DNA of 64,000 nt. It comes from a candidate division BRC1 bacterium HGW-BRC1-1. Lineage in GTDB: Bacteria > Sumerlaeota > Sumerlaeia > Sumerlaeales > Sumerlaeaceae. Shown piece by piece: positions 61,158 through 64,000 of this stretch. The DNA lies in contig PHCB01000006.1 of assembly GCA_002842095.1 (NCBI GenBank), positions 270,044 through 334,043 of the forward strand. Reading direction: 5' to 3'. Within the stretch, counting starts at the first letter, position 1. The number at the start of each line of letters is the position of its first letter. The notes beneath the pieces were generated by a model. The model was not told the DNA's origin. It made no database searches and saw only the letters and a list, made by a program, of their open reading frames with translations. Made by a program: the position numbers and the translations under genes.

Positions 61158-61718
61158 TTAAACTTCCATTACGTCTTTTTCTTTGGCGGCCAGCGACTCA
61201 TCGATTTGCTTGATGAACTTGTCAGTAATCTCCTGCACCTTGTGGGTCGCGCGGGTCATTTCATCCTCGGCGATCTCGTGGGCTTTTTCAGTTTTCTTGA
61301 TTTCGTCATTCGCGTGGCGACGGATATTGCGCACCGAAATGCGTCCGTCCTCGGCCATCTTTTTCGCCATCTTCACCAGATCTTTGCGCCGTTCCTCGGT
61401 GAGGGGTGGGATTCCGAGACGGATAACCTTGCCGTCGTTGTTGGGCGTCAGGCCCACGTTGGCGGCCAGAATGGCCTTCTCAATGGCTGCCATCTGACTT
61501 TTGTCGAAGGGAGTGATGGCGATGGAACGCGCGTCGGGCGTGTTGATTTGCGCCACCTGCTTCAGCGGCAGCGTGGAGCCGTACGCCGTCACCGGAATGC
61601 TGTCCACCAGTGCGATGGAAGCCCGGCCCGTGCGCAGGCTGGCAAATTCATGTTCCACGGATTCAACCGCTTTTTGCATCTTCTCCTGCATTTCTTTCAT
61701 AACGCTGTTAATCGGCAT
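61158..61718 (-). CDS. frr: Ribosome recycling factor
   Basis: A 186-residue RRF, which with EF-G splits post-termination ribosomes. Typical segments: [58 protein letters not shown] and [16 protein letters not shown]. It begins inside the end of pyrH, overlapping it by 11 bases, the usual pyrH-frr pair. Confidence 0.97.
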
Positions 61719-62421
61719 GGTTGTCGTCTCCTACGTAGGTTCCCACTTTTTCGCCTTGCACCACCCGCCGGATATTACCGTGAGTGTGCAGGTCGAAGAC
61801 AATTACTGGAATTTTATTTTCCCTGCAAAGGGAAAGAGCCGTGGTGTCCATCACCCGCAAATTCTGCGCGATGGCGTCGGTGAAGGTTATTTCCTCATAA
61901 CGCTCGGCGATCGGGTCGAGGTGCGGATCGGCACTGTAAACACCGTCGACATTCGTCGCTTTCAAAATGGCCTGGGCGTCAATCTCCGCAGCGCGCAGGG
62001 CGGCGGCTGTGTCTGTGGTGAAGAACGGGTTGCCCGTGCCGCAGGCGAAAATAACCACGCGCCCTTTTTCCAGATGACGGATGGCCCGCCGACGAATGTA
62101 ACTCTCGGCCACTTCCTTGATGTCCAAAGCGCTGAGCACGCGGGTTTGCAGACCCGCGCTTTCGAAGGTGGCCTGAAGCGCCAGACTGTTGAGCATCGTG
62201 GCGAGCATGCCCATGTAATCGCCCACGGCCCGGTCGATATGCTTCTGATTGCCACCGCGGATATAGTTGCCTCCGCCAATAACCACGGCCAGTTCGATGC
62301 CGGTGGAATCAACCAGTTCGCGGATCTCTCCCGCCAGACTATGAACAAACTCAAAATCAATGCCGAATTCCTGCGAACCCTTGAGGGCCTCGCCGGAAAG
62401 CTTCAACAGTATGCGCTTCAT
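61708..62421 (-). CDS. pyrH: UMP kinase
   Basis: A 237-residue hexameric UMP kinase that phosphorylates UMP to UDP with ATP. Visible: [54 protein letters not shown] and VDGVYSADP. The start MKRILL was chosen rather than six codons upstream. It overlaps frr downstream. tsf, usually before pyrH, is not visible; a glycosyltransferase gene precedes it instead. Confidence 0.97.
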
Positions 62422-62435
62422 GCTATGACGCTGGT

Positions 62436-63949
62436 TCATGGCAGATATGATTCCTTGGCGGAAGTGGATAAATCAATGAAAGAAACCTGAGCACCGCGCG
62501 CCAAAATGCGGATGGCTCCGGCAGCGAGCAACCACAATCCGAGAAGGGGCACCAAACCCGAGGGACCTCGCAGGCCCGCCAGCCACTGTCCCGCATTGGG
62601 AGCCGTGTCGCCCAGCATGAACGAGGGCCAGATATGGCGGGAGAAAAGCCAGGTGTAGGTTTCGGAAAATGAGGGATGCAGCAACATGCCCAGCGTGGTG
62701 AACGCATTGAGATCGCGGGGCTGAGGATCAACCGCCACCACCACCAGATGCAGCGCCACGCCCATCAGGCCGAACACCACAAACGACCACCGGAACGCCT
62801 CGTTGCGCCAAAAGAAGGCCGCGGGCAATGCTGCAAAACAAACCGCCGGAGCGAGATGCCGGGCGCTGAAACTCCAGCCGCCCCACCACATATAATAAGC
62901 GCTGTTGAAGATAACATAGGCCGCAAAAATAGCGAGGCACATCGCCGCCCGCCCGCGCTGCCTGCCTCGGGCGGCGGCCAATGCAGCCACCACCGCTCCC
63001 AGCGAGAGAATCAAGAAGGGCGAATGGATCAACACGCCCCGATAGGGAAGCACCGTCACCAAAGCCGCAACAGCCAGTCGCGGATGCCCAAGCCCCATGA
63101 AACCCTCGGCCATCTGTTCGCGGAAAAGATCCATCCGTTCGAACTCATAGGGAATCGCGAATCGCCCGAAAATATGAAACGTGTACGCAAAAAACGGTGC
63201 CAGCACCAGCAGCCCCGCCACCACTGCAGGCCAGCTTTTCCACGCGAGGGCAGGCCGACCGGCCACCATGTAAAGAAACAGTAATCCCGCGGCAATAGCC
63301 GCTGTGTACTCGCACAACACCGCACCCCCCAGCGCGGCCCCGATGGCAAACCATCGTCCCGCACCCGGTTCGTCACCGGGTCGCGATTCATAAAACCACA
63401 AACCCGCCAGCAACCCCAACACCGCAGGCGCATACGACATGAACAACGTGCTGTAAGGCATGACCATGCTGCCCATCCACGTGAGACCCGCCGCGAGTGC
63501 GGCTCCCGCCAAACCCATCCCCCCCCCCACAGGAGGAACAGACGCATAAGCACCACCACCGCCAGCGCGGCACAAATCCCGATGGAGAAAAGCGTGATCA
63601 CATATCGGCGCGTCTCCATGGAGAATGGGCCAGCGCCCAGGCCGGCCTCCAGCCCACGCAGCGCCCCCGCCGCCGGCACACCCAGCAGCGACACGCCGAT
63701 GATTTTGTCCGAGTAAACACGACCGCCGAACTCCGCCACGTCGTTGGTTTCCAACGGTGCGCCGGGCGCGATCCATCGGTCCACCTGCACCGAGCCGTCT
63801 TCCACCAACGCCATCGTCAGCGCCAGACGCGAGTTCACATTCCATCCCGGCTCGCGATGGTGAAACCATCCCGCCGTGATGAAGATCATCAGCGCCAGCA
63901 CCACCTCGATGGCGCGCCCGCTGCGCGCGGAAGGCGTCACCGGCGTCAC
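62436..63949 (-). pseudogene. Membrane glycosyltransferase-like gene, split at a poly-G tract
   Basis: One gene in two frames. From the GTG at 63949 an N-terminal frame encodes a membrane protein (AIEVVLALMIFITAGWFHHREPG, then DGSVQVDRWIAPGAPLETNDVAEFGGRVYSDK). At ten consecutive G (63519-63528) the frame is lost; the continuing protein (GGGMGLAGAALAAG, PAVLGLLAGLWFYESRPG, on to [15 protein letters not shown]) lies in another frame and ends at 62436. Overall about 500 residues with ten or so membrane helices, like GT39-type or dolichol-phosphate-mannose-dependent transferases. Eleven G would restore the frame. It may be phase-variable or a sequencing error. The GTG start overlaps the stop of the gene further upstream. 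Confidence 0.7.
63519..63528 (-). repeat. Poly-G tract of ten (C on the plus strand)
   Basis: The run TGT-GGGGGGGGGG-ATGGG on the coding strand marks the point where the reading frame of the glycosyltransferase-like gene breaks. One more G or two fewer would join the halves in frame. Confidence 0.9.
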
Positions 63950-63999
63950 TCGCCCGGGTACACGAATTCCATCACCACTTCCGTGTCGGGATGCAGGCT
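63946..63999 (-). CDS. C-terminal end of an unidentified gene (partial)
   Basis: The minus-strand frame entering from the right end reads SLHPDTEVVMEFVYPGE and stops at 63946-63948. The TGA overlaps the GTG start of the glycosyltransferase-like gene by four bases (GTGA), the sign of one operon. Too short to identify. Confidence 0.6.
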   Translation of the reverse strand, partial: SLHPDTEVVMEFVYPGE

Positions 64000-64000
64000 C

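Follow-up and report, generated by a model that had tools for sequence, protein, structure and literature searches.

A gene for a membrane glycosyltransferase-like protein of the GT-C type, located on the minus strand of the analyzed 64,000-nucleotide stretch of DNA (hereafter, the window), is divided between two reading frames at a run of ten G. The best explanation, which we hold tentatively and rank slightly ahead of an assembly error, is real, probably neutral, length instability of this G10 tract, not a selected surface switch.

The run, read directly from the sequence, consists of ten C on the plus strand at positions 63519–63528, corresponding to ten G on the minus strand, which is the coding one. 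The N-terminal part of the gene (63529–63949, minus strand), which is 51% identical over 127 amino acids to the orthologue L077, begins with GTG at 63949, and its frame reads on across the run and terminates at 63056. The C-terminal part (62436–63518, minus strand; 46% identity to L077 over 318 amino acids) lies in the other frame, which is open already ahead of the run and ends with the stop at 62436–62438. Both halves correspond to one 505-amino-acid open frame in L077, where their placements are adjacent and do not overlap, and hence the frame switches at the run or within a few codons of it. Thus, the frame break at ten G reported in the sequence-only reading is borne out, as the run at 63519–63528 joins two halves of one protein that are in different frames. 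Besides the run, there is no second stop or break in the reading frames across 62436–63949; being otherwise open, the gene is not an old pseudogene. A single run of at least ten G/C is by itself unsurprising, as 0.32 such runs are expected per 64 kb under the first-order Markov model, versus one observed. What stands above chance is the coincidence of the run with the frame break, together with the excess of very long tracts in this genome (see below).

The nature of the encoded protein was considered via the L077 orthologue, whose structure model (pLDDT 90.5, pTM 0.92) matches GT-C enzymes in all top rows of the fold comparison, with Z-scores of 20–22: ALG12 (Z 21.7) and ArnT (Z 20.8) come first, followed by OST and PMT. 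The earlier description of the gene as “membrane glycosyltransferase-like” therefore holds as far as the fold is concerned, and, by homology to L077, the split gene likely encodes a GT-C-fold protein of this kind. The intact orthologue shares its fold with the GT-C glycosyltransferases ALG12, ArnT, PMT, and PglB/OST, but the identity over the aligned rows is 8–14%. The match to the Pfam family PMT_2 (PF13231) scores 15.4 bits, below the gathering cut-off of 26.1, and attains an E-value of 0.01 or better in three out of 17 homologues; the match to the NCBIfam LA_3751/LA_3752 putative glycosyltransferase family is also below the cut-off. A PDB sequence search with the family profile yielded no match, whereas the fold comparison did find relatives. 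Two aspartates, D61 and D72 (L077 numbering), situated between helices 27–43 and 76–95, are nearly invariant and would be candidates for a catalytic acidic residue in the first extracytoplasmic loop, as in GT-C enzymes.

The gene is matched in 34 of the 41 genomes searched, usually once per genome, with one match in its own genome. The relatives named here are Candidatus Sumerlaeota metagenome genomes, and the closest of those compared represent other genera of the same family, at about 46% protein identity. The homologue matches, e.g., L077, L078, and L081, have no internal stop, the sole exception being a paralogue in G025. The position of the run corresponds to a loop between helices whose length varies among the relatives; in the L077 model, no internal stretch other than this loop (residues 140–146) has a pLDDT below 50. 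In 16 relatives, G/C runs in the homologous loop reach a length of five at most, and the tract is not kept there; as these relatives come from other genera, the comparison speaks to old conservation only. The distance from the loop glycine to the next G[TS], counted by eye, is 16 residues in the short-loop members versus 18 here when read in frame; since the short-loop relatives are two residues shorter, which fits about five G, the tract has probably expanded, by approximately two codons. Loss of sequence at 63519–63528, of the kind seen in the PPK2 gene described below, is ruled out, as the length of the loop is within or above that of the relatives. Conserved family residues are retained in both halves of the split gene.

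The GT-C-type gene is flanked by an OsmC-like gene and pyrH. The OsmC-like gene, assigned by OsmC-type models below the cut-off, is represented by its 3′ end (63946–64000, minus strand) and runs on past the window; its stop overlaps the start of the GT-C-type gene by four bases (GTGA). Directly downstream, in the longest reading of pyrH (UMP kinase; 61708–62439, minus strand), the ATG overlaps the GT-C-type gene's stop (ATGA, 62436–62439). The next gene in the same direction (61158–61718, minus strand) we take, from its translated sequence, to be frr, encoding the ribosome recycling factor. Two relatives, L077 and L079, have the same order, with the GT-C-type homologue just upstream of pyrH. 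The pyrH–frr pair is essential in well-studied bacteria, and an off state of the GT-C-type gene could lower its expression.

The whole genome (3.77 Mb in 34 contigs, apparently a metagenome assembly) contains 15 runs of at least ten G/C versus 18.8 expected under the first-order Markov model; five tracts are at least 14 bases long (14, 15, 19, 21, and 30), versus 1.6 expected already at a length of at least 12. Contigs C5, C11, and C22 (L068, L073, L075) terminate within G/C tracts of 19, 21, and 14, respectively, which suggests length heterogeneity or read failure there. A poly-G read-tail artefact is an unlikely cause of the C5 and C11 ends, whose 3′ ends are poly-C, that is, in the wrong orientation.

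Every G/C run of at least eight bases was taken, and the coding frame on each side of it was called from codon usage; at runs of six, background false shifts, with gene borders counted, amounted to six out of 74. Among the runs of 8–9 that are coding on both sides, 23 out of 24 are in frame, the one apparent shift lying beside a contig end (an 8-base run beside the 15-base tract of a lipoprotein gene was counted with that tract), and this rules out a general homopolymer error at short runs. Five out of seven coding runs of at least ten are out of frame, and the remaining two, both of ten G/C, in the genes for an M16 peptidase and an AraC/solute-binding protein, are in frame. Frame breaks are thus far more frequent at the longer runs (5/7 vs. 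1/24, Fisher p = 0.0007), and five broken out of seven is the expectation for random length modulo 3 (p = 0.57). Tract length in this assembly is essentially random relative to the frame, and surface genes are not singled out: among the coding tracts of at least ten in the genome, no concentration in surface genes is seen. Other tracts of this length are intergenic or in 23S rRNA. The run of ten C in 23S rRNA (C9:41501–41510; L072:4002–4011) equals in length that of the relatives; a T present in the C-rich block of three family relatives is absent here.

The other frame-broken genes encode diverse proteins. A PMT_2-like membrane protein (a weak match) with a TPR-like C-terminus has a G12 at the frame break (C1:12837–12848; L063:3838–3849); an intact paralogue, 60% identical, is found at C8:379768–380502. 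In the lipoprotein gene (C1:50871–50885; L064) and the gene for an FHA protein (C8:54336–54365; L069), the frame changes across a 15-base tract in the proline-rich region and across 30 C in a proline-rich linker, respectively. The gene for a two-domain PPK2 is broken at a G10 (C2:178861–178870; L065:3862–3871); the portions flanking the run can each be aligned to 3czp, and about 64 conserved coding bases are missing at the run. As slippage does not remove 64 bases, the PPK2 gene reflects either assembly failure at the tract or a true deletion.

The sister genome G003 presents a different picture: all 11 coding tracts of 10–11 are in frame, so that none out of 11 is broken versus five out of seven here (p = 0.002), and they lie in ordinary genes, such as GlgC-like, SpoIID, and T2SS K. 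Such tracts are, therefore, not inherently unstable in the family, making assembly error a near-equal contender. Runs of at least ten G/C number 23–27 in G003, G005, G012, and G037, versus none in G004, a single-contig genome of the same family.

Taking length instability as the cause, the G tract, located in a loop of this widely conserved GT-C gene that is variable and under low constraint, would have grown until it could slip, and the assembled sequence would have caught a length that is out of frame with the remainder of the gene. If slippage takes place at replication, the break would be reversible, and poly-G phase variation works by just this mechanism. We infer three of these elements, namely, that the tract has expanded, that G10 truly is the prevailing length in the population, and that the break is reversible. 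Since the breaks are random in frame and extend beyond surface genes, slippage or miscounts fit better than a surface switch. In favor of real slippage are the excess of very long tracts, the presence of one clean lesion only, and published controls: G10 templates were approximately 99% correct on Illumina with barcoded families, which may not be the platform of this assembly, and a natural G10 locus of B. breve contained 6.5% G9 within one culture (PMC9187656). Hence, a call of G10 may be correct, and tracts of this length do slip. Counted against instability are the possible drop in pyrH–frr expression in an off state, the G003 tracts, all in frame, and the approximately 64 bases missing from the PPK2 gene, which slippage alone does not explain. 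The last two observations agree with the reading in which the real tract keeps the frame and the assembly gives it a wrong length, as it does at further long G/C tracts. We consider such an error a serious possibility, and the caution in the sequence-only reading about sequencing or assembly error is upheld. The error would account for the breakage of most coding tracts of at least ten, non-surface genes included, for the gap located exactly at the G10 of PPK2, and for the three contigs stopping inside tracts of 14–21; it also conforms to the unbroken state of the split gene in the relatives, and to the warning that database records of G-tract length are not to be relied on and that a G tract can cause Illumina reads to fail beyond it (PMC9187656). 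The same Illumina control, subject to the reservation about the platform, speaks against it, as do the two other coding G/C10 tracts that are in frame and the tracts of 8–9, which almost always are.

Reversible slippage at the run as an on/off control of a surface-glycan enzyme, that is, the phase-variable surface-modification gene proposed earlier, seems unlikely to us. One part of this proposal stands: the intragenic G10, whose length sets the reading frame, falls into the slippage-prone range, as the phasome cut-off for such G/C tracts is nine or more (PMC5953494). The GT-C fold of the L077 orthologue model, the second membrane gene out of frame, PMT_2-like and with an intact paralogue, and the precedents in Neisseria, Campylobacter, and Bifidobacterium also are in favor of a switch. 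However, a dedicated, selected switch is disfavored, because the tract is absent from the loop of the 16 relatives, the gene is widespread in the phylum and usually single, which typical accessory contingency genes are not, and similar breaks affect the PPK2, FHA, and lipoprotein genes, cytoplasmic genes among them. The in-frame tracts in ordinary genes of G003 and the location of the gene just upstream of the essential pyrH–frr pair are further arguments against it. Decidedly unlikely, too, is a lineage with unusually unstable G/C tracts, e.g., due to weak mismatch repair, that switches at least two GT-C-type membrane glycosyltransferases. A recent fixed loss of function in the lineage, which we regard as quite improbable, would be consistent with the clean single lesion and with the seven out of 41 genomes (some of them incomplete or distant) that have no match to the gene, so that its loss may be tolerated; however, the gene is present in most relatives, and, with conserved family residues intact in both halves, any loss would have to be very recent. 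Hardly credible is programmed recoding, in which a complete protein is made from the G10 gene because the ribosome shifts frame, or transcription slips, at the G run: the downstream frame is indeed −1 and the run offers G-GGG-GGG, but the relatives compared have neither a run nor a frame break at the site, all being read in one frame, and the frame changes by −1 in three of the five genes with a break but by +1 in the other two, which indicates no common recoding signal.

Comparison with known systems shows both likeness and difference. The pilus genes bbr_0113 and bbr_1889 of Bifidobacterium breve, also a GC-rich bacterium, contain intragenic tracts of G10–G11 and are split in the reference sequence, and slippage restores their frame (PMC9187656); however, in B. 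breve, mixtures of lengths have been quantified and linked to a surface structure, whereas here we have a single assembled length in a widely conserved membrane enzyme. Similarly, the surface-glycan contingency genes of Neisseria and Campylobacter carry a G tract of at least nine inside a glycan-related gene, but their tracts recur across strains and in many surface genes (PMC5953494, PMC539331), whereas the tract considered here is unique among the genomes compared and cytoplasmic genes are similarly broken.

If the lengths are miscounts, genes of this assembly that contain a G/C tract of at least ten should all be checked before any of them is called a pseudogene or a switch. If real, phase variation here would be a fresh case of a well-known mechanism. 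We found no papers on phase variation in Sumerlaeota in the open-access literature, and, to our knowledge, such switching would be the first known in this uncultured phylum. Tract lengths that are both real and mixed would mean that, in an environmental phylum without cultured members, glycan enzymes are subject to poly-G slippage.
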